64,000 nucleotides of DNA, taken from the NCBI RefSeq assembly GCF_017569225.1, contig NZ_CP071868.1:2542001-2606000 (forward strand), given 5' to 3'. A program made the translations under genes and the position numbers. The notes below the pieces were generated by a model. That model was given only the letters and a program-made list of their open reading frames with translations, was not told the origin of the DNA and did no database searches. This document shows positions 39,441 to 60,160 of the stretch, in pieces. Numbering within the stretch: the stretch's first letter is position 1; each line of letters begins with the position of its first letter. The DNA comes from Pengzhenrongella sicca. GTDB taxonomy: Bacteria > Actinomycetota > Actinomycetes > Actinomycetales > Cellulomonadaceae.

Positions 39441-40463
39441 CTACTCGCGTGACCGGACCGGTCCCGTCGATCGACGCACGATCAGCTCGGGCCGTCGTGG
39501 CGCCAGCGGCGGCGGCGCCGTTCCGTCGATGAGCGCGAGAAGTTGCTGCACCGCATCTCTGCCCTGGGCGGTGAAATCAAGCCGAAGAGTCGTGAGGGGC
39601 GGCGAGAAGTACGCTGCTTCCGGGGTGTCGTCGACTCCAGTGACGCTGACGTCGTCCGGTACACGGTGACCGCGCTCGTTCAACGCGAGGATGACACCGA
39701 GCGCAATCTGATCGTTGGCTGCGACAAACGCCGTCGCGGGCAGTTCACCCGGCAGCGATGCGATCGCCTCATAACCGGACCGGGCGGACCAATCGCCGTG
39801 AATGACGCTGCGAGAGTTCAGGCCAAGCTCGATGATGGCTGCCTCGTATTCACGGGTGCGGTTGCGCGCCCCCACCCAGGTGCGCGGGCCGGCGATGTGC
39901 ACGATATCGCGGTGACCGAGATCGGAAAGGTGACGCAGCACGGCGAGGAGACCGTTGGCGGCGGGTGTGGTGTCGGTTGGCAGCTTGTCGTGGCCTGTGG
40001 CCAGGTAGAGCGGCACCCGGAACGTCGTGGACTTCACCGCGTTCGTCACCTCGTCGGTCGACGAGAGCGCGAGCACCCCCGCGAGGTCGAATTGGAGTGC
40101 AAGGTCGATGGACTCGCGAATCGCCGCGGGGTTGTGCAGATCCAGGGTGATGACGTCGAGCAAGTAGCCCGCGTCGCGGGCGGCCATGGTGGCGCCCTCG
40201 AGGATCTTGTTCGGACCAACCTGAGTGATCTCGTGGGTGAGCGCAGCGATGCGGTGCGAGCGGCCTGTCGTCAGCGAGCGGGCGTTGAGGTTGGGCCGAT
40301 AGCCGAGTTCGCGGATCGCCTTGGCGACGCGGTCGCGCGTGTCGGGCCGGATGCCCTCGTAGCCCTTGAGCAACCTGCTCACAGTCGCATGGGACACCCC
40401 GGCAGCTCGCGCCACGTCATAGATCGTGGCCGGCCGTTCGACGCTTGGTTGCGCCTCGGTCAT
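39441..40463 (-). CDS. LacI-family transcriptional repressor
   Basis: 340 residues. The HTH is TIYDVARAAGVSHATVSRLL with the hinge helix RPNLNARSLTTG; the periplasmic-binding-like domain ends STGPVRSRE. The dimerisation and sugar-binding parts are full length. It is divergent from the beta-galactosidase operon, and three copies of a 16-bp LacI-type operator lie in the gap, so it represses the operon and probably itself. The inducer is likely a galactoside or galactose derivative. Confidence 0.93.
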   Translation of the reverse strand: MTEAQPSVERPATIYDVARAAGVSHATVSRLLKGYEGIRPDTRDRVAKAIRELGYRPNLNARSLTTGRSHRIAALTHEITQVGPNKILEGATMAARDAGYLLDVITLDLHNPAAIRESIDLALQFDLAGVLALSSTDEVTNAVKSTTFRVPLYLATGHDKLPTDTTPAANGLLAVLRHLSDLGHRDIVHIAGPRTWVGARNRTREYEAAIIELGLNSRSVIHGDWSARSGYEAIASLPGELPATAFVAANDQIALGVILALNERGHRVPDDVSVTGVDDTPEAAYFSPPLTTLRLDFTAQGRDAVQQLLALIDGTAPPPLAPRRPELIVRRSTGPVRSRE

Positions 40464-40489
40464 CGTTCCTCCTTGGCCTTGACACCGTC

Positions 40490-40505
40490 ATGTTACCGGC
40501 AACAT
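40490..40505. promoter_or_regulatory. LacI-type operator 1
   Basis: ATGTTACCGGCAACAT, an inverted repeat with central CG as in LacI-family sites. It is nearest to the lacI start and probably serves autoregulation. Confidence 0.8.
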
Positions 40506-40520
40506 AATCGTGGCCGCGAC

Positions 40521-40536
40521 ATGTTGCCGGAAACAT
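40521..40536. promoter_or_regulatory. LacI-type operator 2
   Basis: ATGTTGCCGGAAACAT, same consensus as site 1 (ATGTTNNCGGNAACAT), 31 bases from it, about three helical turns. Confidence 0.8.
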
Positions 40537-40555
40537 TGGGCTCCAAGTCGCGACG

Positions 40556-40571
40556 ATGTTGTCGGAAACAT
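40556..40571. promoter_or_regulatory. LacI-type operator 3
   Basis: ATGTTGTCGGAAACAT, 35 bases from site 2 and 28 bases before the TTG start of the beta-galactosidase gene, where bound repressor would block transcription. Confidence 0.8.
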
Positions 40572-40599
40572 CCGGCAACCAGCCACAACGGAGTGGACC

Positions 40600-42708
40600 T
40601 TGGCCGACGCGCACCTGCTACCTGACCGGATCTTGTTCGGAGCGGCGTTCTACAACGAGTACCGCGTGAACGGTGACCTCGAGGGCGACCTTGACCTGAT
40701 GGCCGAGGCATCCTTCTCGGTCATTCGCGTTGGCGAGTCTGTGTGGGCGACGTGGGAGCCAGAGCCGGGGGTGTATCACCTCGACTGGCTGCAGCCCGTG
40801 CTCGACGGTGCGCATGCCCGCGGCATCTCGGTCGTGCTCGGTACGCCAACCTATGCCGTCCCCCCGTGGCTTCGCGCGATGGATCCGGAGCTAGCGGGCG
40901 AGGAGGCCACTGGGGTGCGCCATCCCTGGGGGCGGCGTCAGGAGGTCGATATCACGCATCCCCTGTTCCGGCAGCACGCGGAGGGCGTCATCCGGGCGAT
41001 CGCCGCGAAGTATGCCAGCCACCCCGCGATCATCGGCTACCAGGTCGACAACGAGCCTGGCCCGTTCCTCCTGCACAACCAGCGGGTGTTCGATGGCTTC
41101 CTGGGCTGGCTCGAAGGCCGGTACGAGGATGTCGAGACGCTCAACCGGGAATGGGGGCTCACGTTCTGGTCGCAGCGCATCCGCAGCTGGGATGAGCTCT
41201 GGCGCCCCGATGGCAACCACTCACCGCAGTACCAACTCGAGTGGCGCCGCTACCAGGCCGAGCTCGTCACCGAATTCATCGCGTGGCAGGCCCGCATCGT
41301 GCGCGAGTACGCGGGTCCCCGCCAGTTCGTGACGACCTGCATATCGTACGAACGCCCGGCGATCGACGACCGCCAGCTCGTGCAGCAGCTCGATGTCACG
41401 GCGGGCAATCCCTACTACATGATGCAGGACGCACTCCGCATCGGGGTTGAGGTGCCGCGAACCGCGAAGTGGTGGTCGTCCGGAGTGTGGGCACTCTTTG
41501 AGCAGGGTGACCGCATGTTCAGCTCGGCACAGGCTCCGTTCCTGGTCACCGAGACGAACGCGCAGTCCATCGGGCAGTCCCACTGGCAACACCACACGCC
41601 GTACCCGGGCCAGATCGCGCTCGCGGGCCTCGCGCTTGTGGCACGCGGCGCTCGGATGATCGAGTACTGGCAGTGGCAGACACCCCACTACGGCATCGAA
41701 ACCTACTGGGGCGGGGTGCTGCCGCACAGTGGCCAACCCGGTCGCATCTACCGTGAGATCGCGGAGCTCGGTCGCCGGTTGCGCGACCTCGGGCCAGTGC
41801 TCGAGGGGTTCACGCCCGATGCCGATGTCGCCCTGCTCTATTCGATCGACACCAAACACAGTTTCGAGTTCTACCCGCCGCTCGCCGACGCCGAGGGCGG
41901 ACCGGATGGCATGTCGTACCTGCGGATCTTCGATCGCTACTACCGCGCGGCTTTCGAGGCGGGTACCCAGAGTCGGATCGTGCACGCAGCCCAGTTCCGG
42001 GAGCGCGACACGGAGGACTTCGTGGCCGAGTTCCCCACCCTCGTCGTGCCGACCCTCTACGTCGCCGATGACGGCATGCTCGACGCCCTCGTGCGTTACG
42101 CCGAGGCAGGCGGGCACCTCGTGGTCGGCATCCGAACCGGCTACGGCGACCAGCTCGCCAGGGCACGGCCCGAGCGAGCGCCCGGGCGTCTCGCCGCCGC
42201 GGCGGGGGTCTGGTACGACGAGTACTCCTCGCTCGACGCACCGGTCGGCATCGACGGCGCCACCTTCGGTGGCGGCCACGCCGAGGGTTGGGCGGATGCG
42301 CTCGTCGCCGACGGCGCCGATGTTGTTGCCGTGTACTCCTCGGGTATCTACGCGGGCCGGCCCGCGGTGACCTCGCGCGAGCACGGTGCAGGGCGCGTCA
42401 CCTACGTGGGCATGCTGCCCGACCTCGCGCTTGCGACATCCATTCTTCGCTGGGCCGTACCGATCGCGAGCGCGAGCGAATGGCAGTTCGATGCCCCGGT
42501 CACGGTCACCTCTGGCAGCAGTGGCGACGAGCGCGTCTGGTTCATTAGCAACTGGTCATCCGAGCCCGCCACCGCTCACCCGCCGCAACGGAGCGGCGGA
42601 AAACCGATCGTTCTCGAACCGTGGGATGTCACCGTCCTCGTCGAGCAACGCGACCCCGAATCCGGGGCCGTCTACATCCCCGAGCCAGAGAGAGTAGAGC
42701 CATCATGA
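40600..42708 (+). CDS. GH42 beta-galactosidase
   Basis: 702 residues from a TTG at 40600 with GGAG five bases upstream. Retaining enzyme that cleaves beta-D-galactosides. LFGAAFYNEYRV opens the barrel; the acid/base Glu is in GYQVDNEPGPF and the nucleophile Glu in FLVTETNAQS; the GH42 trimerisation domain follows (TLVVPTLYVADDGMLDALVRY). No signal peptide, so it acts on imported oligosaccharides. It overlaps the next gene (ATGA), a sugar-binding lipoprotein. Alternative earlier starts fall in the operator region and are unlikely. Confidence 0.92.
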   Translation: MADAHLLPDRILFGAAFYNEYRVNGDLEGDLDLMAEASFSVIRVGESVWATWEPEPGVYHLDWLQPVLDGAHARGISVVLGTPTYAVPPWLRAMDPELAGEEATGVRHPWGRRQEVDITHPLFRQHAEGVIRAIAAKYASHPAIIGYQVDNEPGPFLLHNQRVFDGFLGWLEGRYEDVETLNREWGLTFWSQRIRSWDELWRPDGNHSPQYQLEWRRYQAELVTEFIAWQARIVREYAGPRQFVTTCISYERPAIDDRQLVQQLDVTAGNPYYMMQDALRIGVEVPRTAKWWSSGVWALFEQGDRMFSSAQAPFLVTETNAQSIGQSHWQHHTPYPGQIALAGLALVARGARMIEYWQWQTPHYGIETYWGGVLPHSGQPGRIYREIAELGRRLRDLGPVLEGFTPDADVALLYSIDTKHSFEFYPPLADAEGGPDGMSYLRIFDRYYRAAFEAGTQSRIVHAAQFRERDTEDFVAEFPTLVVPTLYVADDGMLDALVRYAEAGGHLVVGIRTGYGDQLARARPERAPGRLAAAAGVWYDEYSSLDAPVGIDGATFGGGHAEGWADALVADGADVVAVYSSGIYAGRPAVTSREHGAGRVTYVGMLPDLALATSILRWAVPIASASEWQFDAPVTVTSGSSGDERVWFISNWSSEPATAHPPQRSGGKPIVLEPWDVTVLVEQRDPESGAVYIPEPERVEPS

Positions 42709-44084
42709 GGCAAGGAGCACGCAAGGCCGCGGTCGCGATCACCTCGATTGCCGCCGTGGCGGCATTGACGCTCGCCGGCTGCACGTCCAGCACAGATCCG
42801 GACGACAACAACAGCCCAGGCCCGGATGACACGGGCGGTCAGATCACGGATGCGCAACGCGAAGAAGCGCTGAACACGCCAACGGAACTGACCTTCTGGA
42901 CCTGGGTACCCGACGTTCAGGACCAGGTCGACATGTTCGAGAAGCAGTACCCGGAGATCCATGTCACGGTCGAGAACGTCGGCCAGGGCTTGGATCACTA
43001 CTCAAAGGTGCGCACCGCATCAAAGGCCGGTACCGGCGGCCCTGACGTGGTCCAGTTGGAGTACCAGTTCATTTCCTCGTTCGCACAGACCGGCGAGCTC
43101 CTCGATCTGACGCCGTACGGTGCGGCAGACCTCGCTGACCAGTACGTGCCGTGGGTCTGGAAGCAGGTCCTCTCCAACGACCAGGTGCTCGCGATCCCGC
43201 AGGACTCGGGGCCGATGGGCAACCTGTACCGCGAGGACATCATGAACGCGGCAGGCGTCACTGAGCCTCCCGCAACGTGGGCGGACTACAAGACCGCCGC
43301 GGAGAAGGTGCGCGCGAACACGAGCTCCTACATCTCCAACATGGCGCCGAGCCAGGGCGCAGGGTGGCTCGGGCTGTTGTGGCAGGCGGGTGTCAAGCCG
43401 TTCGGCTATGACGGCGGGCAGAATGTCACGATCGACGTGAACAGCCCTGAGGCGAAGAAAGTGATGGCCTACTGGCAGGACATGATCCAGAACGATCTCG
43501 TCTCGATCGACCCTGACTTCAACGACGAGTGGTACCAGGGTCTCAACCAGGGCAAGTACGCCGGCTGGCTGACGGCGGCGTGGGCTCCGGTCTTCCTCTC
43601 CGGTGCCGCGAAGGACACGTCGGGCCTGTGGCGCGCCGCGCCGCTGCCGCAGTGGGACACGAGCAAGCCGGCCTCGGGCAACCAGGGCGGTTCAGCCGAC
43701 GCGGTGCTCAAGACCACGAAGAACCCGATCGCGGCCTACGAGCTCGCGAAGTGGATCAACAACGCACACGACCCAGCGTTGCTGTTCACGACCCAGCAGA
43801 ACTTCTTCCCGACGGCGATCGCGGTACTCGAGGACCCGGTCTTCGTCGACCAAGAGTCTGACTTCTACGGTGGACAGCAGGTCAACAAGCTGTTCGCGGA
43901 GATCTCCACAACGGTAGACACCGATTGGCAGTGGCTGCCGTTCATGGAGTTCGCCTACTCCAGCTTCAATGAAACGTTCGGGGCCGCCGTCGCGGCCAAG
44001 GGCGATCTCGCTGCGGGCCTGGATGCCTGGCAGGACGCACTCGTCGACTATGCAAAGCAGCAGGGCTTCACGGTCAACGGATAG
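42705..44084 (+). CDS. ABC transporter sugar-binding lipoprotein (CUT1)
   Basis: 459 residues. A signal peptide with lipobox (ALTLAGCTSS) anchors this extracellular solute-binding protein (family 1). Clear fold markers are LTFWTWVPDVQDQVDMFEKQ near the start and the DIMNAAGVTEPPATWADYKT segment. It feeds the permease pair 44156-45966; the ATPase is not in the cluster, as is usual for actinobacterial CUT1 systems that share MsiK. Substrate likely a galactoside or galacto-oligosaccharide because it is co-transcribed with GH42. Confidence 0.92.
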   Translation: MRQGARKAAVAITSIAAVAALTLAGCTSSTDPDDNNSPGPDDTGGQITDAQREEALNTPTELTFWTWVPDVQDQVDMFEKQYPEIHVTVENVGQGLDHYSKVRTASKAGTGGPDVVQLEYQFISSFAQTGELLDLTPYGAADLADQYVPWVWKQVLSNDQVLAIPQDSGPMGNLYREDIMNAAGVTEPPATWADYKTAAEKVRANTSSYISNMAPSQGAGWLGLLWQAGVKPFGYDGGQNVTIDVNSPEAKKVMAYWQDMIQNDLVSIDPDFNDEWYQGLNQGKYAGWLTAAWAPVFLSGAAKDTSGLWRAAPLPQWDTSKPASGNQGGSADAVLKTTKNPIAAYELAKWINNAHDPALLFTTQQNFFPTAIAVLEDPVFVDQESDFYGGQQVNKLFAEISTTVDTDWQWLPFMEFAYSSFNETFGAAVAAKGDLAAGLDAWQDALVDYAKQQGFTVNG

Positions 44085-44093
44085 AAAGCGGTC

Positions 44094-44117
44094 GGCCCGG
44101 GGATCAAACCCCGGGCC
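44094..44117 (+). promoter_or_regulatory. Intercistronic hairpin between binding protein and permeases
   Basis: GGCCCGGGG pairs perfectly with CCCCGGGCC around the 6-base loop ATCAAA. No T tract follows. Such hairpins after binding-protein genes stabilise the upstream message or attenuate readthrough so that binding protein exceeds permease. Confidence 0.7.
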
Positions 44118-44155
44118 GCTCCCGCCGAAACATCACCTGATCGAAGGAGCTCGAG

Positions 44156-45043
44156 ATGACCAGCGCGATCCAGCGGAAGCAGCACCTCGTTGCCTACGGA
44201 TTCATCCTCCCATTCTTTGCCGTGTTCGCGACGATGTTCATCGCACCGCTCGCCTACTCGGGCTACCTGAGCTTTTTCGCGCACAAGCTCGTCGGCGGCG
44301 CGAAATTCGTCGGCTTCGAAAACTATGTGCGCGCGTTCCAGGATCCCGCCTTCCTCTTCGGACTCGGACGCACCGCACTCATTCTCTTGGTACAGGTGCC
44401 CATCATGCTCGGGCTCGCGCTATTCTTCGCGCTCGCGCTCGACTCCGGTCGAGCGCGCGGGAGTAAGGCGGTGCGGCTGCTCATCTTCTTGCCCTTCGCG
44501 GTGCCCGGCGTCGTCGCCGTGCTCATGTGGGGCTACCTCTACGGGCGGGATTTCGGACTCACTGGCCAGATCACCCGCGCACTCGGGTTGCCACCTACGG
44601 ATTTTCTGTCGGATCAGCTCATCTTGTTCTCGATCATGAACATCGTCACGTGGGCGTTCGTCGGCTACAACATGATCATCCTGTATGCGGCGCTCAAGTC
44701 GATCCCCTCCGAGCTGCACGAGGCCGCCGAGATCGACGGCGCGAGCCAATGGCGACTGGCCTGGAGCGTGAAGATCCCAATGATTCGGCCCGCCATCTTC
44801 CTGACGATCATCTTCTCGGTCATCGGGAGCTTCCAGATCTTCAACGAACCGAAACTACTCGTGGAAATCGCTCCTACTGCGATCCCGCAGGGGTTCACAC
44901 CCAACTTCTACGCCTTCAACGTCGCGTTCGTGAACCAGGACATCAATTACGCTGCGGCGATCGCATTCCTGCTCGGCTTCGTCATCATGATCGTCTCGTA
45001 CGTCGTGCAGCTGAGCATGCAGAAGAGGGAGGTGCGGTGGTGA
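44156..45043 (+). CDS. ABC sugar transporter permease 1 (CUT1, MalF type)
   Basis: 295 residues with six membrane helices. The EAA loop is LHEAAEIDGASQWRLAWSVK and the conserved start LVAYGFILPFFAVFATMF is family-typical. GAAGGAGCT precedes the ATG. It ends overlapping the second permease (GTGA). Confidence 0.93.
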   Translation: MTSAIQRKQHLVAYGFILPFFAVFATMFIAPLAYSGYLSFFAHKLVGGAKFVGFENYVRAFQDPAFLFGLGRTALILLVQVPIMLGLALFFALALDSGRARGSKAVRLLIFLPFAVPGVVAVLMWGYLYGRDFGLTGQITRALGLPPTDFLSDQLILFSIMNIVTWAFVGYNMIILYAALKSIPSELHEAAEIDGASQWRLAWSVKIPMIRPAIFLTIIFSVIGSFQIFNEPKLLVEIAPTAIPQGFTPNFYAFNVAFVNQDINYAAAIAFLLGFVIMIVSYVVQLSMQKREVRW

Positions 45044-45966
45044 CCGCCCAGTTGAATCCGGTGACAGCGCCACCCAGCAAGCCGTCCAAGAGCGACAAGC
45101 GCCGCAAGGCGGTCAATCGCGGAAAGCGCCGCAGTAACCTGCTCACCCTGGTGATGTGGTTGAGTGTGCTCTACTTCATCCTGCCGCTCATCTGGCTCTT
45201 CATGTCCGCGACAAAAGACAACAGCGACCTGTTCACCACGTTCGGGCTGTGGTTTGGCCATGACTTCAACCTTTTCGCGAACATCAGGGACGTGTTCGCG
45301 TACCAGGACGGCATCTACGCGCGTTGGGCGCTGAACACGGGCATATACGCGGGCGTTGCCGCGCTCGGCGCGACCACCCTCGCAACAATGGCGGGCTATG
45401 CGTTCGCAAAGTACAAGTTCCCGGGTGACAAGTTGCTGTTCGCCATCACTTTGGGTGCGATCATGATCCCGCTCACGGCACTGGCGATCCCCACCTATCT
45501 GCTGTTTTCCTCGGCGCACCTCACCAATACGCCGTGGGCCGTCATCCTGCCTTCGCTCGTGAGTCCGTTCGGTGTGTTCCTCATGCGCGTGTACGCGGCC
45601 GATGCCGTACCCGACTCGCTCATGCAGGCTGCACGAGTGGATGGCGCGGGCGAATACCGGATCTTCTGGACGGTATCCCTCCGCCTGCTCGCGCCTGGCA
45701 TGGTCACGGTGATGCTGTTCACATTCGTGGCGACGTGGAACAACTACTTCTTGCCGCTCATCATGCTCAATAGCGGAAAGCTATTGCCCTTGACTGTCGG
45801 ACTCGCGCAGCAGCAGGCGACCTCGACGGCGGGCGGTGGCGCACAAGCGCTGTTCTCAACCGTGATCGCAGGCGCGTTCCTGTCGATCATCCCGCTGGTC
45901 ATCGTGTTCTTGTACCTGCAACGTTTCTGGCAGACCGGTCTCGCGACCGGCGGTGTGAAGGGCTGA
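45040..45966 (+). CDS. ABC sugar transporter permease 2 (CUT1, MalG type)
   Basis: 308 residues from a GTG overlapping the first permease stop. Six helices; EAA loop LMQAARVDGAGEYRIFWTVS; the start has a basic cytoplasmic stretch (KPSKSDKRRKAVNRGKRR). It forms the membrane channel with permease 1. The operon then runs into a degenerate region at 45968-46289. Confidence 0.93.
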   Translation: MTAQLNPVTAPPSKPSKSDKRRKAVNRGKRRSNLLTLVMWLSVLYFILPLIWLFMSATKDNSDLFTTFGLWFGHDFNLFANIRDVFAYQDGIYARWALNTGIYAGVAALGATTLATMAGYAFAKYKFPGDKLLFAITLGAIMIPLTALAIPTYLLFSSAHLTNTPWAVILPSLVSPFGVFLMRVYAADAVPDSLMQAARVDGAGEYRIFWTVSLRLLAPGMVTVMLFTFVATWNNYFLPLIMLNSGKLLPLTVGLAQQQATSTAGGGAQALFSTVIAGAFLSIIPLVIVFLYLQRFWQTGLATGGVKG

Positions 45967-45967
45967 C

Positions 45968-46289
45968 GTGATCTGGTACGGCGGGGACGACAACCCCGAG
46001 CATTGGCCGCGAGTGAAAGCAGGATTGCAGGTCTCATCGCGTCGGCCGGGATGCGTATCCCCGGTGCTGTTTGGGAGGAGTTGGAACATCTTGTCCCGCC
46101 CGCTTCGACGTGGCTCGATCGCCCTTCGCATGGCCGCCTCTCCTCGCGTCTATGCGCAGGCATCCCTGGACCGGTCCGCGGTGCCTCGGTTGTGGGTCGC
46201 CGCCGACCGCATCTTCTGGCATGCCAACAGTGGCAGGACACCGCGGTGCCCTGCTCTCCGCGCACCAAACGACCTATGAAGGGTGATGT
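45968..46289 (+). pseudogene. Degenerate remnant: GH42 start fused to an unrelated C-terminal piece
   Basis: IWYGGDDNPEHWPR just after the permease stop is the N-terminal signature of another GH42 beta-galactosidase. Within about 15 codons the similarity ends; in another frame ESRIAGLIASAGMRIPGAVW and EELEHLVPPASTWLDR resemble the C-terminal end of an aldo/keto reductase. A deletion has apparently joined two former genes of the cluster. The second assignment is weak. Confidence 0.55.
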
Positions 46290-47447
46290 ATGAAGATCAC
46301 CGGCTACCGCTGTCTGCGGACCTTCCACGACTGGGGCAGGCCCGTCGGAGACGTGAACGGGTTCACCGATCCGGGCATCAGTGAGGTCTCGATCGTCATC
46401 CTCGAGACCGACCAGGGCATCGAAGGCGTCGGCATGGGGTCGCACCAGGACATCGACCGGCTCTTCCCGGCCATCGAAGGCGAAGACCCCCGAGCCGTGA
46501 CCGCCCTCTACGACCGCATGCTCGCCCGCGTGTTCAAGGCGGGGCACTCGGGTGCGACGTTCGGGGGAATCGGCACACTCGACACAGCGCTCTGGGACCT
46601 GAAAGCCAAACTCGCCGGCGAACCTCTGTGGCGGTTGCTCGGCGCACGCGACCGCTTCGTGAGCGGGTACGCGTCAGGTCTCGACATCGCCCTCGACGAC
46701 GACCAGCTCGCGACCTGGTACCGCACGATGGGTGAGCGAGGCTTCGCTAGCGGAAAGCTCAAGGGCGGTCGTGATCTAGATGGCGACATCCGACGTCTGG
46801 GGATCGTCGCCGACGCCCTGAGCGGCAACGGGGTCACTCCGGCAGTGATGCTCGACGCAAACGAATCGTGGAACCTCAGGCAGGCCGTGCGGTACGTCAC
46901 GGCGATCGAGGCACGCCGCGACCTGACCTGGATCGAGGAGCCGCTGCGGCGATGGGACGCTGCCGGTCACGCACGCCTCGGCACCGCGATCCATGCCGCC
47001 GTCGCGACCGGTGAGAACCTGACCGGTCTAGAGCAGTTCACCCCGCTCTTCGATCGCGGCGCGGTCGACATCGTGCAGGTTGGCTGCGGGTGGGGCGTGA
47101 CGCATTTGCTGCGGGTGGCCTATGCCGCCCACTCCCGCGACCTCCCCGTCAGCCCCGTCGGCCTGACAGCGAACCCCTCGGTCGCACACGCAGCGGCCGC
47201 CGTGCCGAACCACCTCGCCTCCGAGGTGCAGGACCTCGGGTCGCCGTTCGGCATCTCGGTCGACCAGGATTTCATCGACGGCGGGGTCGTACTGGGGGAC
47301 CTTCCCGGCAACGGCATCACGATCGACGAGGATGCCATTGCCGCCAGCCATCACGCGGGCAATTGGACAGCGCCAGCGGGGCCGCACGTACGTTCACACC
47401 GTGCCGGTCTCCGCCTCGTCGCCGACGCGGATACGGTCGGCGGATGA
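46290..47447 (+). CDS. Mandelate racemase/muconate lactonizing enzyme family protein, probable sugar-acid dehydratase
   Basis: 385 residues of the enolase superfamily. Seen are the KxK motif (SGKLKGGRDLDGD), metal ligands VMLDANESWN, TWIEEPLRRW and VATGENLTG. In the place of the usual second general base His on strand 7 the sequence is VSPVGLTANP, with Val at the corresponding point by my reading. It likely dehydrates or epimerises an aldonate; the exact substrate (galactonate, fuconate or related) cannot be told. ATG with GGGTGATGT upstream; its stop overlaps the next gene (ATGA), an amidohydrolase/lactonase, which fits a lactone-to-acid-to-keto-acid route. Confidence 0.82.
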   Translation: MKITGYRCLRTFHDWGRPVGDVNGFTDPGISEVSIVILETDQGIEGVGMGSHQDIDRLFPAIEGEDPRAVTALYDRMLARVFKAGHSGATFGGIGTLDTALWDLKAKLAGEPLWRLLGARDRFVSGYASGLDIALDDDQLATWYRTMGERGFASGKLKGGRDLDGDIRRLGIVADALSGNGVTPAVMLDANESWNLRQAVRYVTAIEARRDLTWIEEPLRRWDAAGHARLGTAIHAAVATGENLTGLEQFTPLFDRGAVDIVQVGCGWGVTHLLRVAYAAHSRDLPVSPVGLTANPSVAHAAAAVPNHLASEVQDLGSPFGISVDQDFIDGGVVLGDLPGNGITIDEDAIAASHHAGNWTAPAGPHVRSHRAGLRLVADADTVGG

Positions 47448-48295
47448 ATCAGCTTGACCGTCCTGCCGCTGAAACACGCCTTATCGACAGCCACGTGCAC
47501 ATCTGGGATCCCACGGTTCTGCAGTACTCCTGGCTGGAGGGTGAGCTGGACCGCCCCTATCTTCCGGCCGAATACCAGGCTGGGGCGCCGGCCACCACCG
47601 GTGTCATATTTGTCGAGGCGGGTCCGGAGAGCAAGGCGGACGAGGTGGCCTGGGCCGAGTCTCTCGGCTGGCCGGAGCTGCTGGGAGTCGTCGCCCATGC
47701 ACCGCTGGAGCGGGGCAGGGGGGCTAGGACGGAGCTGGCGGCCCTGCGCGAAGCCGGCCGCACAGTCGGCATCCGCCGGATGCTGCAGGATGAGCCACGG
47801 TCGTTCTTTGAGAATCCCGGCTTGCTTGAGGGTTTGCGCGAGCTCGCGCAGGCGGGGCTGCCGTTCGATGCGTGCATCCGGCATCACCAGCTTGCTGCCT
47901 TGACTGCGCTCCTTACGAAGGTTCCGGACCTGCCCGTTGTGCTCGATCATCTCGCCAAGCCGCCCGTCGCAACGGGTGATGACGGAACCTGGGATAGGGA
48001 CCTACGCGCGCTGGCCGCCCTGCCCCAGGTCAGCGTCAAACTGTCAGGGATGCCCCCCGAGCTACGTGACGACCAGGAACTCGTTCCCGCAGCTCGCCCG
48101 TGGCTCGGGGTCGCGCTCGATGCGTTCGGCGCGGACCGAGCGATGGTGGGTAGCGACTGGCCGGTTTCGGCGATGATGCCCCGACGGCTGCCCCCCGGCC
48201 GGTGGCTGTCGATTGTGCTGGACGAGCTGGGCGCCAGCCCCGCGGAGCGCGAACACCTGTCCTGGCGCACGGCGTCGCGCTTCTACGGCGTCTGA
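47444..48295 (+). CDS. Amidohydrolase family 2, probable aldonolactonase
   Basis: 283 residues. The HxH motif is LIDSHVHIWDPTVLQYSWL and the last metal Asp is in MVGSDWPVSAMMP; VVLDHLAKPP contains the further His. The family includes L-fuconolactonase and L-rhamnono-lactonase, which open aldonolactones. Coupled to the preceding dehydratase by ATGA. It may replace the truncated lactonase at 39046 in the fucose pathway. Confidence 0.85.
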   Translation: MNQLDRPAAETRLIDSHVHIWDPTVLQYSWLEGELDRPYLPAEYQAGAPATTGVIFVEAGPESKADEVAWAESLGWPELLGVVAHAPLERGRGARTELAALREAGRTVGIRRMLQDEPRSFFENPGLLEGLRELAQAGLPFDACIRHHQLAALTALLTKVPDLPVVLDHLAKPPVATGDDGTWDRDLRALAALPQVSVKLSGMPPELRDDQELVPAARPWLGVALDAFGADRAMVGSDWPVSAMMPRRLPPGRWLSIVLDELGASPAEREHLSWRTASRFYGV

Positions 48296-50962: not shown

Positions 50963-52393
50963 ATGTCCACTACTCAAGGCGCTAGCAGTCCGGGCGCCGC
51001 CCAGATCAACGAACACGACCTTCGCCGCGCTGCGCTCGCTAGCACCCTCGGAAGCGCCTTGGAGTACTACGACTTCGCGCTCTACAGCTTGGCGTCGGCC
51101 CTCATCTTCGGGCAGCTCTTCTTCACCGACGCTGACCCAGCCACGGGTCGCATCCTCGCGTTCGCCACGTACTTCATTGGCTTCGCGGTGCGTCCCCTTG
51201 GAGGGCTCTTCTTCGGCTCGCTCGGCGACCGGATCGGCCGTAAGCAGGTGCTGCTGATGACGGTCCTGCTGATGGGGGGCGCCTCCACTCTGATCGGCGT
51301 TCTGCCGACGTACCAGCAGGTGGGCATGTGGGCTCCCGCGCTGCTTATCGTCCTGCGGATCGCCCAGGGCTTCGGCGCCGGCGCGGAGCAGGCTGGCGCC
51401 GCGACCTTGATGACGGAGTACGCCCCGCCGCGTCGTCGCGGGTTCTACGCGGCCCTGCCGTTCATGGGGATCCAGGTCGGTACCGTGATCGCTGCGGTCG
51501 TCTTCTTCGCTTTGCTCGTGCCGAGCGAGGAGGTTCTTTACGGCTGGCTGTGGCGGGTGCCGTTCCTCGCGAGCGCCGTCCTGATCGCCATCGCCGTGTG
51601 GATCCGATACAAGCTCAAGGAATCGCCGTCATTCACCAAGCTCGAGGCGCGTGAGCAGATCGAGATGCAGCCCCTGCGTAGCCTGCTACGCACCTCACGC
51701 CGCACCGTCGCCATCGGCATCGGCCTGCGCATGGCTGAGAACGGAGGCTCGTCGGTTTATCAGGCGCTCGCCATCAGCTATGTCGTCACGGTCGCTCTGG
51801 CCGACGTCGCCAACCCCGGTCCGATCGGCGCGATCGCCCTGATCTGCGCTGCCACCGTCGGCGCGGTCACCGTGCCGGTCGCTGGCAAGCTCACCGACCG
51901 CTTCGGGCGGATCCCGGTATACCGGGGATTCGCGATCGCCCAGCTGGTTCTCGTGTTCCCCGTGTGGTGGATCCTGTCGACTGGAAACATCCCGGCAACT
52001 GTGGCGGCGATCTCGATCGCCCTCGGTGTCGCGACGTGGGGAATGTTCGGCGCGCAGGGCGCACTCATGCCCGAGCTTTTCGGTGCTCAGCACCGCTACA
52101 CCGGTGTGTCGGTGGCCCGCGAGACGTCTGCGGTCATCGCCGGCGGCGTCGCGCCCCTGGTCGGCTCGCTGCTGCTGTCCTGGTTCGCGGATAGCTGGGT
52201 GCCGATCGCGGTCTACCTCGCGCTTCTCACCCTCATCACCATCGCGACAACGTTCATCACCCCGGAGACGCGCGATCGGGACCTCGATTCCGACCTGGAC
52301 GCTCTGGATGAGCTGCCCGGCCGGCCCTCTGCGGAGATTTCCGACGCCGACCTGACGACGCGCCCAAACACCGACAGCATCCCGGCCCGGTGA
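50963..52393 (+). CDS. MFS transporter, metabolite:H+ symporter (MHS) type
   Basis: 476 residues with 12 membrane helices. The MHS signature is clear at LGSALEYYDFALYSLASALI and the loop motif LFFGSLGDRIGRKQ; the second half has GKLTDRFGRIPVY. Related carriers import organic or sugar acids such as shikimate or alpha-ketoglutarate. Its position before the IclR regulator and the FAH-kinase-HPS-PHI operon suggests it imports that pathway's substrate. It is convergent with IclR, 41 bases apart. Confidence 0.86.
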   Translation: MSTTQGASSPGAAQINEHDLRRAALASTLGSALEYYDFALYSLASALIFGQLFFTDADPATGRILAFATYFIGFAVRPLGGLFFGSLGDRIGRKQVLLMTVLLMGGASTLIGVLPTYQQVGMWAPALLIVLRIAQGFGAGAEQAGAATLMTEYAPPRRRGFYAALPFMGIQVGTVIAAVVFFALLVPSEEVLYGWLWRVPFLASAVLIAIAVWIRYKLKESPSFTKLEAREQIEMQPLRSLLRTSRRTVAIGIGLRMAENGGSSVYQALAISYVVTVALADVANPGPIGAIALICAATVGAVTVPVAGKLTDRFGRIPVYRGFAIAQLVLVFPVWWILSTGNIPATVAAISIALGVATWGMFGAQGALMPELFGAQHRYTGVSVARETSAVIAGGVAPLVGSLLLSWFADSWVPIAVYLALLTLITIATTFITPETRDRDLDSDLDALDELPGRPSAEISDADLTTRPNTDSIPAR

Positions 52394-52434: not shown

Positions 52435-53214
52435 TCAGCGGTGCGGCAGGAGTGCCGCCAGCCGCTCCGCAGCGGCGGTCAGGGGCGGCAGGAAGTCGCC
52501 CATGCCCTTCAGACTGACCCGGAAGGCGGGGCAGGCGATCGCCACGGCCGCAACCACGGTGCCCGCGGACCCGAAGACCGGGACGGCTATCGCACGGATA
52601 CCCTCTTCGTGCTCTTGGTCCGTGATCGCGAAGCCCTTGCCGCGAACGAGGGCGACCTCGGACCGCAAACGATCACGGTCTGTAACGGTGCGGTCGGTGA
52701 AGCGCACGAGGGAGATGCTGGAGATCAACTCCTCACGCGTAACCGGGTCGGCGAACGCGATGAGGACCTTGCCGATGCTGGTGCAGTGCAGAGGCCCGAG
52801 GCCACCGGGGTCTCCTTTGACACCGATCTGATGACGCGCCTCGACGTGGTGGACGTAAAGCTGGTGGTGTCCGTCCCGCACGGACAGCAGGCTTGCCTCG
52901 GTCGTCACCTCAGACAGGTGCTCGAGCACCGGCAGTGCGACCCCGCCGAAACCGAGCGACGCGGACACCCTCGCACCCAGCTGGAACAGACGCAGGCCCA
53001 GGCGATACCTCTTGGCCACCGCGTCCAGCTCGACGAAGCCGTCACGGCCCAGGGACGCCAGCAGCCGGTGGGTCGTGGAGAGCGGAAACCCGGTCTCACG
53101 GGCCAGCTCCGACAGGGACGCACCATCCGTGTGCCGCCCCACCACGGTCAGCAGCAGCAGCGCCTTGCCGACCATGTCGCGCGGAGGCGAGTCTGCCGTC
53201 GTCGTGAGTTCCAT
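52435..53214 (-). CDS. IclR-family transcriptional regulator
   Basis: 259 residues. The winged HTH is ASLSELARETGFPLSTTHRL; the effector domain carries GLGPLHCTSIGKVLIAF and EEGIRAIAVPVFGSAGTVV, both standard. It is divergent from the FAH-family gene, with palindromes over its own start codon, so it is probably autoregulated and controls the sugar-acid operon. IclR members near such operons respond to 2-keto-3-deoxy acids, which would fit the kinase downstream. Confidence 0.9.
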   Translation of the reverse strand: MELTTTADSPPRDMVGKALLLLTVVGRHTDGASLSELARETGFPLSTTHRLLASLGRDGFVELDAVAKRYRLGLRLFQLGARVSASLGFGGVALPVLEHLSEVTTEASLLSVRDGHHQLYVHHVEARHQIGVKGDPGGLGPLHCTSIGKVLIAFADPVTREELISSISLVRFTDRTVTDRDRLRSEVALVRGKGFAITDQEHEEGIRAIAVPVFGSAGTVVAAVAIACPAFRVSLKGMGDFLPPLTAAAERLAALLPHR

Positions 53215-53240
53215 ATGGAAACCCTATCCATAATGTGGAA
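53209..53240. promoter_or_regulatory. Pair of palindromes in the IclR/FAH control region
   Basis: TTCCATATGGAA (53209-53220) is an exact 12-bp palindrome spanning the IclR start codon. A second site, TCCATAATGTGGA (53227-53239), has TCCA/TGGA arms. The two share TCCAT, are about 18 bases apart and cover the short divergent promoter. Confidence 0.6.
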
Positions 53241-53252
53241 GGCAGGAGTCCT

Positions 53253-54023
53253 ATGAGGATCGTCCGCTATTGGGATGCCGGCGTCGTCCAGACCGGTGTG
53301 CTCGTCGGGGGCGGCGAGCGGGAGACCTCGGCGAACCGCGTCCAGCCGGTCGCGTCCTTGATCGACACCACCCCGATCGGGCCCGACGTCGCGCTGGAGC
53401 GGGTGCGGCTGCTCGCTCCGGTGATCCCCCGGGTCGTGGTTGGCATGGCCCACAACACCGGCGTTGCTGATCGGCTCCTGCCTCCCAGTGCGTTCTTGAA
53501 GCCTGCCGGCTCGGTGATCGGCCCCCTTGACGCGATCGAGGTGCCGGACGATATCGGACGTGTCGACGCCGAGGCCGAGCTGGCCGCGGTCATCGGTCGC
53601 CGCGCCCGCGACCTTCACCCGGCCACCGCGCTCGACGCAGTCCTCGGCTGGACCTGCGCGAACGACGTCACGGCGCGCGACCTGCAGGCCAACGACGACT
53701 GCTGGACCAGAGCCAAGGGGTACGACACCTTCACCCCGCTCGGGCCCTGGGTCGAGACCGACCCCGCCTTCGACCCGGACGACGTCGTCGTCCGCCTCGA
53801 CGAGATCGGTGCCACCAGTGGCGGTCTCGCTCGCTCCGTGGGCGAGGTCCTGGCCTATCTGACGAGCTTCATGACACTCGACGTAGGCGACGTCGTGCTT
53901 CTGGGCGCGCCCGGCCCGAGCCGCCCACTGCACGACGGCGACGTCGTCAGCGTCACTGTCGCCGGCCTCGGCACCCTGCGCAACCCGGTTCGGCTGCGTC
54001 AGACCCTGGCGGTGGCGCGATGA
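53253..54023 (+). CDS. Fumarylacetoacetate hydrolase (FAH) family protein
   Basis: 256 residues from the ATG at 53253 (MRIVRYWDAG; GGCAGGAG upstream). Metal-binding residues are in DAEAELAAVIGRRARDLHP (ExE pattern) and WTCANDVTARDLQ; KGYDTFTPLGPWV is the family hallmark. Members hydrolyse acylpyruvates or dehydrate 2-keto-3-deoxy sugar acids; sequence does not separate these. First gene of a four-gene operon, overlapping the kinase by ATGA. Confidence 0.87.
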   Translation: MRIVRYWDAGVVQTGVLVGGGERETSANRVQPVASLIDTTPIGPDVALERVRLLAPVIPRVVVGMAHNTGVADRLLPPSAFLKPAGSVIGPLDAIEVPDDIGRVDAEAELAAVIGRRARDLHPATALDAVLGWTCANDVTARDLQANDDCWTRAKGYDTFTPLGPWVETDPAFDPDDVVVRLDEIGATSGGLARSVGEVLAYLTSFMTLDVGDVVLLGAPGPSRPLHDGDVVSVTVAGLGTLRNPVRLRQTLAVAR

Positions 54024-55039
54024 CCGCGACGGGAACCGGCGTCGGTGTCGACGTCGTGACGTTCGGTGAGGTCATGGGCATGTTCGTTGCCGACGACGCC
54101 GGCGATCTGGCGGACGTGACCCGGTTCACCCGGTCGCTCGCAGGCGCCGAGTACAACGTAGCGGTCGGCCTCGCCCGCCTCGGCCACACCGTGGCGTGGG
54201 TGGGTCGGCTCGGGGACGACCCGGTGGGTCGCAGCGCCCTCGCGGCGATGCTCGGCGCTGGCTTGGTAACAGACGCTGTCGCCATCGCGCCCGGTGAACG
54301 CACCGGGCTGCAGCTGAAGTCCCGGACCATCGGGGGCGACCCGGAGGTCGTCTACTTCCGAAGTCATTCCGCCGGCCGCGAGCTCACCGCTACCCCCTCC
54401 TCGGACGCGCTGGTCCGTAGCGCCCGGCACCTGCACGCGACAGGGATCCCGCTAGCCCTCAGCGGGCGGCTTCGCACCTTCGCCCACGACGCCGTCACGC
54501 TCGCCCGAAGGTCCGGCGTTCGGGTCAGCGTCGACCCCAACCTGCGACCATCCCTTTGGGCCTCCACGCGCGAGATGGTGCGGGAGACCAATGCACTCGC
54601 CGTTCGCGCCGACTGGGTCCTGCCCGGCCTGGACGAAGGGCGCCTGCTCACCGGCGCCCGCGAACCGGCCGGCGTCGCGGCCTTCTACCTCGAGCGGGGA
54701 GTTCAGCTCGTCGCCGTCAAGGACGGGCGGCGCGGAGCACACGTGTTCACCGCCGACGACCACGTCCGCGTCGGCCCGCTGCCCGTCACCGCTGTCGACA
54801 CCGTCGGGGCCGGCGATGGGTTCGCGGCAGGCCTCATCAGCGCCGGGCTCGACAACCTAGACCCGGCTGCCAGGGCGCTACGCGCCGCCGGGGCCGGCGC
54901 CCTGGCGACGACCGCATTCGGCGACCAGGAGGGCCTACCGACCCGCGTCGAGCTCGCAGCTCTCCTGACGGCGGCCGGCCGCGCGAGTACTTCCCCGCTG
55001 ACAACCTCGTCGACTCTCCCCTGGATGGTGGCCTCATGA
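54020..55039 (+). CDS. PfkB-family sugar kinase, 2-keto-3-deoxygluconate kinase-like
   Basis: 339 residues. N-terminal signature VVTFGEVMGMFVADDAGDLA and GGAEYNVA-like LAGAEYNVAVGLARLGH; C-terminal PfkB signature DTVGAGDGFAAGLISAG with the catalytic Asp; SVDPNLRPSLW is typical of KdgK. It would phosphorylate a keto-deoxy sugar acid or ketose with ATP. Coupled to both neighbours by ATGA overlaps. Because the next gene is an HPS-like enzyme rather than KDPG aldolase, the true substrate may differ from 2-keto-3-deoxygluconate. Confidence 0.85.
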   Translation: MTATGTGVGVDVVTFGEVMGMFVADDAGDLADVTRFTRSLAGAEYNVAVGLARLGHTVAWVGRLGDDPVGRSALAAMLGAGLVTDAVAIAPGERTGLQLKSRTIGGDPEVVYFRSHSAGRELTATPSSDALVRSARHLHATGIPLALSGRLRTFAHDAVTLARRSGVRVSVDPNLRPSLWASTREMVRETNALAVRADWVLPGLDEGRLLTGAREPAGVAAFYLERGVQLVAVKDGRRGAHVFTADDHVRVGPLPVTAVDTVGAGDGFAAGLISAGLDNLDPAARALRAAGAGALATTAFGDQEGLPTRVELAALLTAAGRASTSPLTTSSTLPWMVAS

Positions 55040-55704
55040 TGCAGATCCAAGTAGCACTCGACCGGCTCCCGCTCGACCGCGCCATCGCCATCGCGAGCTC
55101 CATCGCCCCATGGGTAGACGGCATCGAGGTCGGGACGTCGCTCGTCAAGGAGCACGGCATGTCCGCGGTCCGCGAGGTCGCAGACGCCGTTGCGGCCACC
55201 ACCAACGGTCCGTGGGTCCATGCCGACCTCAAGACCGTCGACGACGCCGTGACCGAGGTGACCGCCGCCCTGGCTGCGGGCGCCACGTCCGTGTCGGTGC
55301 TCGCCCTCGCGTCCGACACCACGATCCGCGCAGCGATTCGCACGGCCGACGAGCGGTCCGCGGAGGTCGTCCTCGACCTGATGCTCACCGATAATTCCCG
55401 CCGCAGTGAGCTGGCCCGTTGGCTGCCGCCGCACATAAGGCTCGGCGCCCATGTCGGCAAGGACGACCAGGCCGGCGGCACCAGCGTGCTGGACATGCTG
55501 GGTGACTGGGCGACCGGGCGACGCCTCGCGGTCGCTGGCGGACTCGGGCTCGACCACGTCCCAGCCCTACGCACGATTCCCGACCTACGGCTCGTCGTCG
55601 GATCTGCAGTCACCGGGGCCAGCGACCCCTCCGGAGTCGCCCGCGCGCTCGACGAAGCCCGCCGCCTCCCAGCCGCCGTCCACCCCGGACCCGACGTCCG
55701 CTAA
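55036..55704 (+). CDS. Hexulose-6-phosphate synthase / 3-keto-gulonate-6-phosphate decarboxylase-like protein
   Basis: 222 residues of the OMP decarboxylase suprafamily. The signature DxKxxD is present in HADLKTVDDAV (Asp64, Lys66, Asp69), the metal Glu is in GIEVGTSLVKEHG, and LGAHVGKDDQAGG supplies the His. HPS joins formaldehyde to ribulose 5-phosphate; KGPDC decarboxylates a 3-keto hexonate 6-phosphate. The two cannot be told apart safely here. The sequence is Ala-rich and VLALASDTTIR differs from the commoner HPS pattern. Overlaps the kinase stop (ATGA); PHI follows after 51 bases. Confidence 0.82.
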   Translation: MMQIQVALDRLPLDRAIAIASSIAPWVDGIEVGTSLVKEHGMSAVREVADAVAATTNGPWVHADLKTVDDAVTEVTAALAAGATSVSVLALASDTTIRAAIRTADERSAEVVLDLMLTDNSRRSELARWLPPHIRLGAHVGKDDQAGGTSVLDMLGDWATGRRLAVAGGLGLDHVPALRTIPDLRLVVGSAVTGASDPSGVARALDEARRLPAAVHPGPDVR

Positions 55705-55755
55705 CTGACCTCTCGCCCCCCACTGATCCCGCTCCCCCATCTCCAGGAGAACCCC

Positions 55756-56343
55756 ATGCCAATCACCACCCAAGCTGCCTTCCCCACCACCACCGCTGGC
55801 CGGATCACCGCGGTCGAGGCCGAGATCTCTGCCGTGCTCGCCCGCACCAGCACTGCCGACCTCGAGGCAGTGACCACCGCACTGCTCAAGGCGGGCCACG
55901 TGTTCGTCACCGGCGAAGGCCGGTCCGGGTTCATGGCACGGGCGTTCGCCATGCGCCTCATGCACCTCGGCCTGCACGTCCACGTCATCGGAGAAACCAC
56001 CACACCCGCGGTCGGCGAAGGCGACACGCTCGTCGCCGTTTCCGGGTCAGGCACCACCACGGGAACAGTCCGGGTCGCCGAAACCGCCGCCCGCAGCGGT
56101 GCGCACGTGCTCGCAGTCACCACCGACCCGGGTTCCCCCCTCGGCACCGCAGCGGCCATTTCCCTCGTGGTCCCCGCCGCAACGAAACTCCGCCGCGCGG
56201 ACGAGGCACCCACCATCCAGCCGCTGTCGAGCCTCTTCGACCAGGCCACCCACCTACTGCTCGACGTCATATGCCTAGGTATCGCCGCCGCCCGCAACGT
56301 CGACAACTCCGCCGCCGCATCTCGCCACGCGAACACCGAGTGA
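55756..56343 (+). CDS. 6-phospho-3-hexuloisomerase-like SIS protein
   Basis: 195 residues. SIS fold with FVTGEGRSGFMARAFAMRLM, HLGLHVHVIGETTTPAVGEG and VAVSGSGTTTGTV, the hallmark pieces of PHI, which interconverts D-arabino-3-hexulose 6-phosphate and fructose 6-phosphate. CCAGGAGAACCCC precedes the ATG. HPS and PHI adjacent is the classic ribulose monophosphate pair. An IS1380 remnant begins 18 bases after the stop, so downstream genes may have been lost. Confidence 0.86.
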   Translation: MPITTQAAFPTTTAGRITAVEAEISAVLARTSTADLEAVTTALLKAGHVFVTGEGRSGFMARAFAMRLMHLGLHVHVIGETTTPAVGEGDTLVAVSGSGTTTGTVRVAETAARSGAHVLAVTTDPGSPLGTAAAISLVVPAATKLRRADEAPTIQPLSSLFDQATHLLLDVICLGIAAARNVDNSAAASRHANTE

Positions 56344-56361: not shown

Positions 56362-56586
56362 GGCCGGGACCTGTCGGCGGCGCTCGCGCCGTGGCGTAAG
56401 CCGTTGGCGGTGCGCGATCCCGCGAAGGTCGTCACCGGCCTCGCCCTCATGCTCGCGCTCGGTGGGGACTGCCTGGCGGATATCGCGGTGCTGCGCGCCG
56501 AGCCCGGAGTGTTCGGCCTCGTCGCCTCCGACCCGACGGTGTCCCGCACGATCGACGCCCTCGCCAAGAACGCCCGGCAGCGTTGA
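56362..56586 (+). pseudogene. IS1380-family transposase, N-terminal remnant
   Basis: RDLSAALAPWRKPLAVRDPA and LALMLALGGDCLADIAVLRA and FGLVASDPTVSRTIDALAK are characteristic of the N-terminal part of IS1380 transposases. The frame stops at 56586, far short of the usual 450 residues, and the catalytic domain is missing. Confidence 0.82.
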
Positions 56587-59182: not shown

Positions 59183-59605
59183 ATGTCGCAGGACTACAAC
59201 TGGGTCGACGACTGCGCACGCGAGCGCCGGTCGACAGCGGTCTTCGAGGCTGCCGACGCCACTGCCGAGATCCAGGGGCTGGCGACAGCCCTTGAGGACG
59301 AGTGGTTCAGCCGCGATTTGTGGATCGACTGGTCGAGCTTCGTCGCGGACCTGAACTGTGTCGTGATCCCCTCCACCGGGCGGGACTTGGACTTCGGGAT
59401 CGATCCCGGGTCGCCCGCGATGGTTCGGGTCCAGCGTCGCATCCGTCGCCATCGCATGGCGAGCATCACCCGGTGGAAACTCACCGCCGACCGCACCGCC
59501 GGGGCCGTCATCGCCAAGCCAGCCTCGTGGGCAGCCACCGGACTGACCTGCGTCGATGGGTCGCGCAGCACCGCGATCCCCGATACCTCGTCCAGGACAT
59601 GGTGA
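59183..59605 (+). CDS. Hypothetical protein
   Basis: 140 residues from an ATG with CGGAGGCGG upstream (MSQDYNWVDDCARERRSTAV). The segment LWIDWSSFVADLNCVVIPST and GRDLDFGIDPGSPAMVRVQR have balanced protein composition; the end (IPDTSSRTW) comes just before an IS3 remnant, so the gene may be cut at its 3' end. No family recognised. A competing long frame on the same strand is less protein-like. Confidence 0.4.
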   Translation: MSQDYNWVDDCARERRSTAVFEAADATAEIQGLATALEDEWFSRDLWIDWSSFVADLNCVVIPSTGRDLDFGIDPGSPAMVRVQRRIRRHRMASITRWKLTADRTAGAVIAKPASWAATGLTCVDGSRSTAIPDTSSRTW

Positions 59606-59796
59606 GCCCCGGGCCGGTCCTGGGCAGCGACCGGGCGGCACCCGACCCGGACGTCGAGCCAGTTGTGCACGGCACATGGGGCGACCCCTGCTACGCGCGC
59701 GATTCCGGCTTCTACGGCGAGGATGGCGGGGGGCAGCACCAGCCCGCCGCACCTTCGCGTGCCCCAGATCCAGCCAGCACTACGGAACCGCGCACC

Positions 59797-60160
59797 CGCT
59801 CGCTGCGGGTCGAGCTGGGCACTGAGCACGGGACGGTCCAGCGGGTCGCGACCCAGCGGGGCTACGGGACCGAGCCGGTGCGCCTGTGGGTGCGTCAGGC
59901 CGACATCGACGGCGGCCACGCCCCCGGGGTGAGCAGGTCGGAGTCGGTGCGGATGCGTGAGCTCGAGCAGGAGATCCGCGAGCTGCGGCGGGCCAACGAG
60001 ATCCTGAAGAGGGCCGCGAGTTTCTTCGGGGCGGAGCTCGACCGCCAGCACAGGAAGTAGTCACGTTCATCGACGCCTACCGCGAGGACGTCGTGGAGGG
60101 CAGCCGGCTCGGTGTCGAGCGCATCTGCGAGGTCCTTCTGCGCGCTCGCATCAGAGAGGG
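59797..60160 (+). mobile_element. IS3-family remnant, same family as 29159-30117
   Basis: SLRVELGTEHGTVQRVATQR and LWVRQADIDGGHAPGVSRSE and RRANEILKRAASFFGAELD match OrfA of 29720-30064 closely, but its first 35 residues are missing. A second frame starts VTFIDAYREDVVEGSRLGVE, the OrfB beginning, and ends after ERICEVL. The fragment reads rightward, opposite to the copy near 30 kb. Confidence 0.8.

Follow-up and report, generated by a model that had tools for sequence, protein, structure and literature searches.

A candidate 2-keto-D-gluconate catabolic module with a modified HPS/PHI enzyme pair in Pengzhenrongella sicca

We analysed a compact operon of the actinobacterium Pengzhenrongella sicca that lies at 2.59–2.60 Mb of the single 4.4 Mb contig NZ_CP071868.1 (assembly GCF_017569225.1), within a stretch of 64,000 nucleotides (positions 2,542,001–2,606,000 of the contig, forward strand; hereafter the window, whose numbering is used below). 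An earlier reading of this DNA from its letters alone (the sequence-only reading) had described a FAH/kinase/HPS-like/PHI-like operon with its own IclR regulator and MHS permease. An open reading frame check of the window located all six genes at or near their predicted positions, and Pfam and NCBIfam assigned the operon proteins to these families with strong E-values. On the plus strand, the operon encodes a FAH-family protein that we regard as accessory (53253–54023; FAA_hydrolase 7.2e-48, scan run from 53256), a PfkB kinase of the 2-ketogluconate kinase (KguK) group (54020–55039; Pfam PfkB 1.2e-50), an HPS-like protein (55036 or 55039 to 55704; Pfam OMPdecase/HUMPS) and a PHI-like SIS isomerase (55756–56343). 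The first three genes are indeed coupled by ATGA junctions, at 54020 (FAH/kinase) and 55036 (kinase/HPS), and the PHI gene begins 51 nt past the HPS gene, its ATG preceded by AGGAG. The IclR-family regulator (52435–53214, minus strand; Pfam IclR_C, HTH_IclR) is divergent from the operon as described; of the palindromic sites reported beside it, the gap between IclR and FAH holds one that is perfect, the 6-7-6 palindrome TATGGAAACCCTATCCATA at 53214–53232, a candidate operator. An MHS-type MFS permease is encoded at 50963–52393 on the plus strand (Pfam MFS_1/Sugar_tr; TIGR00883 360.8 bits, under the cut-off of 443).

The HPS-like and PHI-like proteins share with the HPS/PHI pair of the ribulose monophosphate (RuMP) pathway (hxlA/hxlB) the fold, the residues D8/E30/D63/K65/D68/H138 and the adjacency of the two genes, but differ from it in their separate clades, in the residues S34, K141 and R9 of the HPS-like protein and D162 of the PHI-like protein, and in their coupling to a kinase and an acid permease. 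The HPS-like protein scores 144.8 bits against TIGR03128 (HPS), below the curated cut-off of 200, and also falls below the cut-offs of the KGPDC profiles NF009832 (67.2 versus 250 bits) and NF009831 (52 versus 294 bits); it has no second match in its own genome at E ≤ 1e-3. In a 42-row tree, 13 HPS-like proteins from modules of this type form a single clade (support 99/95) apart from both ordinary HPS and KGPDC, and the clustering with ordinary HPS that had been raised as a check on the sequence-only reading was not observed. The PHI-like protein scores 200.7 bits against TIGR03127 (PHI), over the curated cut-off of 160, and 15 module-type PHI-like proteins likewise form a clade (97/96). D162, S158 and H166 are present in 13/13 module PHI proteins, and the LFE motif of PHI becomes LFD in the module; E162 occupies this position in 19/19 ordinary rows, two of which are repeat fetches of one gene.

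Residue differences in the HPS-like protein were defined in an alignment of 71 proteins comprising 13 module proteins, 49 other HPS rows (48 distinct) and 9 KGPDC-type proteins, the last being UlaD, SgbH and seven more that, as with the ordinary HPS set, were classed by residues and tree. Serine 34 (codon 55138–55140) is found in all 13 module proteins, where 48 of the 49 other HPS rows have proline (glycine in L013) and all nine KGPDC-type proteins have isoleucine or valine. Lysine 141 (55459–55461) occupies the position of KGPDC R139 and is equally invariant in the module, against I, L, Y, V or T in 49/49 other HPS and R in 9/9 KGPDC-type proteins. Arginine 9 (55063–55065, numbering from 55039) adjoins the conserved D8 and is present in 12/13 module proteins, the gap being in L075, whose match starts at residue 15; it occurs in 0/49 other HPS and 0/9 KGPDC-type proteins. 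Positions 34 and 141 are columns of a published functional-residue table for this fold, which gives P34 of HPS 3ajx as predicted functional and l137 as aligned and not predicted, and for KGPDC 1xbv lists I37, with r139 aligned but not predicted functional (PMC5980557). Like KGPDC, the module protein belongs to the OMPDC suprafamily, has a basic residue at position 139 and is proposed to decarboxylate a beta-keto acid; unlike KGPDC, it forms its own clade, and the KGPDC residues E112, R139, T169 and R192 are replaced by D, K, A and S in the window protein. An AlphaFold model of the HPS-like protein (mean pLDDT 91.7) has HPS and then KGPDC as its nearest solved folds, and its structural matches include 1xbx, the KGPDC E112D/R139V/T169A mutant with bound ribulose 5-phosphate. 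Because KGPDC was crystallised with the K141-equivalent position altered (R139V), we count this structure as support for our reading of the HPS-like residues; changes at these KGPDC sites reportedly enhance its promiscuous HPS reaction. K141 and R9 may handle the charged C1 group of the substrate.

The gene set recurs in other genomes, as the co-occurrence search proposed with the sequence-only reading had anticipated. Loci compared with the window carry L-numbers and genomes G-numbers. Searching directly with the HPS-like protein found L002 (Qaidamihabitans) and L003 (Prauserella), which have permease, IclR, kinase, HPS and PHI in the window arrangement without FAH, the adjoining permeases being 74–76% identical to that of the window. 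In total nine Pseudonocardiaceae sibling loci (L002, L003, L068, L069, L071–L075) and the window make up ten actinobacterial-type loci. The set of IclR, kinase, HPS and PHI is present in the window, L002, L003, L068, L069 and L071–L074, and L075 has the same set without kinase; this last locus is decayed, with its FAH split over two frames as well as the truncated HPS match. Identities to the window proteins are 46–54% for HPS, 51–62% for the kinase and 55–68% for PHI, and an IclR relative (51–64%) occurs in 9/9 sibling loci. L073 (4400–4570) and L075 (10930–11070) share a palindrome, TTACCACATnnTGGTAA, different from TATGGAAACCCTATCCATA, between IclR and a KguT-like gene, and this is a candidate regulator site. 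Across 390 genomes of the Prauserella family, PHI at E ≤ 1e-40 was found in 10 genomes at 11 places, with an adjoining HPS-like gene at nine and a kinase too at eight; L076 is a PHI remnant whose neighbour genes resemble those of L073 in length and order. Four plasmid records from Lactobacillales (Lacticaseibacillus, Loigolactobacillus, Tetragenococcus) also contain kinase–HPS–PHI, in the order TIM-barrel protein, permease, kinase, HPS-like, PHI (annotated hxlB) and 2-keto-3-deoxy-6-phosphogluconate (KDPG) aldolase, together with a LacI regulator. FAH is encoded in 5/10 actinobacterial-type loci (window, L068, L073, L074, L075) and is missing from the other five and from 3/3 Lactobacillales loci tested; FAH, once considered a core enzyme, was dropped as one because it is absent from those loci.

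IclR, kinase, HPS and PHI thus form a conserved unit beyond chance. Among ordinary HPS loci a kinase was adjacent in 1/19, a control weakened by the flank of only ~1.5 kb in nine of them (L004–L012); kinase adjacency taken by itself is thus not confined to the module. In the single case, L004 (120–3592), the PfkB kinase next to HPS and PHI is only distantly related (25% identity). That locus represents another kinase–HPS–PHI arrangement, with two PHI genes and the ordinary HPS residues P34 and V141. Among 199 relatives and 396 genomes of the phylum, the module was found in the window genome only. A search of the 396 phylum genomes with the HPS-like protein gave 280 bits for the window and 156 for the next best; K141 occurred in none of the 31 other HPS matches examined among the 49 other phylum genomes with a match (L088–L116; G125 and G185, which are L007 and L008), and in none of the 17 examined of 21 non-self matches from the 199 relatives. 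A transposase (DDE) remnant of 74 residues lies at 56362–56583, directly after the operon, and a second transposase-like ORF lies within 59302–60060, which fits acquisition by transfer.

The substrate evidence comes from the kinase and from genes beside the recurring modules. The sequence-only reading had called the kinase KDG-type (KDG, 2-keto-3-deoxygluconate), but the protein is nearer to KguK: it shows 46–47.5% identity with three KguK proteins, compared with 37% for KdgK of Thermus and 28.5% for that of E. coli. Thirteen module kinases share a 100/100 branch with the three KguK proteins and with kinases of Mycetohabitans, Diaphorobacter and Aerococcus. The closest solved kinase, 4du5 (PfkB, 254 bits), was deposited without a named substrate. 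Permeases in seven sibling loci (L068, L069, L071–L075) are 50–53% identical to KguT of the Klebsiella (K. aerogenes) kgu operon, whose gene names are the depositors' annotation, and those of L068 and L073, the two compared, are 24–28% identical to E. coli DgoT/ExuT. In 3/3 Lactobacillales loci tested, the TIM-barrel protein is a KguE homologue (27–32% identity, 89–111 bits, E 2e-23 to 1e-27) and scores at most 27 bits against OtnI, UlaE or SgbU. A search of 14 loci, among them the full window, gave no match at 1e-5 to KguD, the reductase of the kgu operon. Given the KguT-like permeases, the KguK-group kinase and the KguE homologues, the acid substrate is most likely 2-keto-D-gluconate.

We consider it likely that the operon serves the catabolism of 2-keto-D-gluconate, with the modified HPS/PHI pair taking the place of KguD. 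The sequence-only reading had proposed import and phosphorylation of a sugar acid, its cleavage or decarboxylation by the HPS-like enzyme and isomerisation by the SIS protein; our analysis supports this outline, with decarboxylation as the HPS-like step, and sharpens its substrate. In the pathway we propose, 2-ketogluconate would be imported by the MHS permease (by a KguT-like permease in sibling loci) and phosphorylated by the kinase to 2-keto-6-phosphogluconate. The PHI-like isomerase would then convert this to 3-keto-6-phosphogluconate by moving the carbonyl from C2 to C3; since 2-keto-6-phosphogluconate corresponds to fructose 6-phosphate carrying a carboxylate at C1, the step would amount to PHI running backwards on an acid substrate. 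The HPS-like enzyme would finally cut C1–C2 to yield CO2 and ribulose 5-phosphate, which would enter the pentose phosphate pathway; with a carboxylate at C1, the HPS-type reverse cleavage would release CO2, not formaldehyde. The two enzymes named earlier are thus retained, but their order is changed, since the isomerase probably acts first and the decarboxylase second. No reductant would be spent and no epimerase required, and IclR may sense the acid or an intermediate. With somewhat less assurance, we favour the view that this is a third natural 2-ketogluconate route, in which the kinase is followed by an HPS/PHI pair evolved for sugar acids, and ribulose 5-phosphate and CO2 form by way of free 3-keto-6-phosphogluconate with no reductant consumed. 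On this view the HPS-like clade would have a new activity, that of a 3-keto-6-phosphogluconate decarboxylase, the PHI-like clade would interconvert 2-keto and 3-keto aldonate 6-phosphates, and both would have spread between Actinomycetota and Lactobacillales. Open-licence literature, judged mostly from titles and abstract openings, gave no prior description of such a route.

Several observations weigh against this interpretation. The window has no match to KguT or KguE (KguE is likewise unmatched in the Pseudonocardiaceae loci), and its own tie to 2-ketogluconate runs only via the kinase and the sibling loci. The module kinases seemed to be one group before KguK and other kinases joined the tree; they are not monophyletic once KguK is included, the Lactobacillales ones shifting beside KguK and Aerococcus (96/97), apart from the others. 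Of the other kinases on the KguK branch, that of Diaphorobacter is encoded next to altronate dehydratase, that of Mycetohabitans has no pathway genes around it and that of Aerococcus adjoins a KDG permease; because the branch contains kinases of such other contexts, placement alone does not settle 2-ketogluconate over KDG. A characterised 2-ketogluconate kinase is described as also accepting KDG, although its preference is for 2-ketogluconate, which we count in favour of our reading (PMC6651773). The KGPDC hallmarks E112, T169 and R192 are absent from the HPS-like protein. Two loci do not fit the simple module: in G782, a genome with the full module, a second PHI of the module clade (L070, 8026–8835) stands alone, with a sarcosine oxidase/GcvT-like gene some 1 kb away, and in G215 (L048, 8085–14049; from 394 class genomes) a module-type kinase and a clade-member PHI accompany SDR, amidohydrolase and sugar-binding protein genes, with no HPS match at 1e-5 in the draft assembly. 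Elsewhere in the genomes, the closest KguD-like gene has 35% identity to KguD in the window genome but 42–46% in the six Pseudonocardiaceae genomes searched, and because of the latter a reductive 2-ketogluconate route may coexist in Pseudonocardiaceae. Finally, the 2-ketogluconate route does not account for FAH or for the KDPG aldolase that the Lactobacillales modules encode.

That aldolase would fit a route for KDG or another 2-keto-3-deoxy acid, in which the kinase is a KDG kinase and HPS/PHI and FAH act in side reactions. The acceptance of KDG by KguK points the same way, as do the best NCBIfam match of the window kinase, a KDG/2-keto-3-deoxygalactonate kinase model scoring below its cut-off, and the sugar-acid dehydratase-like and lactonase-like genes upstream at 46290–48295. 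We nevertheless judge this route unlikely. The kinase is closer to KguK than to KdgK, the operon has no KDPG aldolase, and by chemical reasoning PHI would have to oxidise a C3 hydroxyl, which 3-deoxy acids lack. Elsewhere in the genome are a 6-phosphogluconate dehydrogenase and two KDPG aldolases (3.67 and 3.99 Mb), each beside a PfkB-family match, so that the operon is not explained by the lack of a pentose pathway or of a KDG-type kinase. The dehydratase and lactonase genes are part of a separate galactoside/sugar-acid cluster of the window (39441–48295), which encodes a LacI regulator, a GH42 beta-galactosidase, a sugar-binding protein, ABC permeases, an enolase-family sugar-acid dehydratase and a lactonase-like amidohydrolase; the ORFs scanned there included neither an identifiable KDG kinase nor an aldolase.

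Formaldehyde fixation, the alternative named in the sequence-only reading and the first we considered, holds that this is an ordinary RuMP pair fixing or detoxifying formaldehyde and that the kinase and permease are unrelated. The PHI-like protein does pass the TIGR03127 cut-off, TIGR03128 is the nearest profile of the HPS-like protein, and its nearest solved sequences and folds are HPS. Yet the HPS-like protein misses that cut-off, both enzymes fall in separate clades, and P34 and the neutral residue 141 are replaced in every one of the 13 module members. Prauserella (G199) retains two ordinary HPS copies besides its module HPS. Context also differs: six annotated ordinary pairs viewed had a formaldehyde-type dehydrogenase near three, zwf/gnd/pgi near one, formate dehydrogenase near one and a phosphotransferase system (PTS) permease near one, whereas the window pair adjoins an acid permease and a sugar kinase. 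On residues, trees and context we set this reading aside as very improbable. The pair viewed near a PTS permease is on a Salmonella plasmid (L084, 3901–7636), where hxlB/hxlA adjoin genes for a glucose-type PTS permease and a member of the phosphoglucose isomerase family, a context that does not look formaldehyde-related.

We also give little credence to a route of the KGPDC type that would degrade 3-keto-L-gulonate or a related compound, in which a kinase and a decarboxylase precede an SIS protein acting on a pentulose phosphate, as in E. coli yia-sgb. The kinase-plus-decarboxylase logic matches yiaK-sgbE and the basic residue at 141 matches KGPDC. Such ascorbate-type catabolism was rejected because the window operon has no epimerase gene, where the ula and sgb operons have 3- and 4-epimerases, and because the hallmark residues differ; it would also leave the PHI-type isomerase without a clear job, and the KguK, KguT and KguE links indicate 2-ketogluconate. 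A reverse RuMP shunt from fructose 6-phosphate to ribulose 5-phosphate is in use in archaea and would employ the PHI and HPS homologues, but it is extremely unlikely here given the 6-phosphogluconate dehydrogenase in the genome, the altered residues and an operon whose regulator, permease and kinase are typical of catabolism.

The proposed 2-ketogluconate module is most closely comparable to the kgu operon of Pseudomonas and Klebsiella (KguE, KguK, KguT, KguD), with which it shares a KguK-group kinase, a KguT-like permease in 7/9 sibling loci and a KguE homologue in the Lactobacillales copies. It differs in having HPS-like and PHI-like enzymes in place of KguD, IclR rather than PtxS in the window and Pseudonocardiaceae, and an MHS permease in the window. 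In published descriptions of the kgu pathway, KguD reduces 2-keto-6-phosphogluconate to 6-phosphogluconate (PMC11678583; PMC11837542), and the kguE reaction is given as still unknown (PMC11678583). A second route, through 2-ketogluconate reductase and gluconate kinase, uses the same substrate but needs NADPH and proceeds via gluconate and 6-phosphogluconate (PMC11837542); the two routes described thus both pass through reduction and 6-phosphogluconate (PMC11837542; PMC6651773). The OtnI/OtnK/OtnC tetronate pathway likewise combines 2-keto to 3-keto isomerisation, phosphorylation and decarboxylation (PMC12540250), but on four-carbon acids, with other enzyme families and with the kinase acting after isomerisation. 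Unlike the L-ascorbate and yia-sgb routes, which use epimerases, the proposed route would need none.

2-Ketogluconate is a common sugar acid, and a reductant-free route from it straight to ribulose 5-phosphate would, if confirmed, be a new pathway. Families that genome annotation treats as formaldehyde enzymes would gain two activities, with S34, K141 and PHI D162 as a residue signature separating both uses. The module would then show in nature the residue switch between HPS and KGPDC that, to go by structure titles, has been made in mutants, and it would place kguE in new company, within a gene set that has no KguD.

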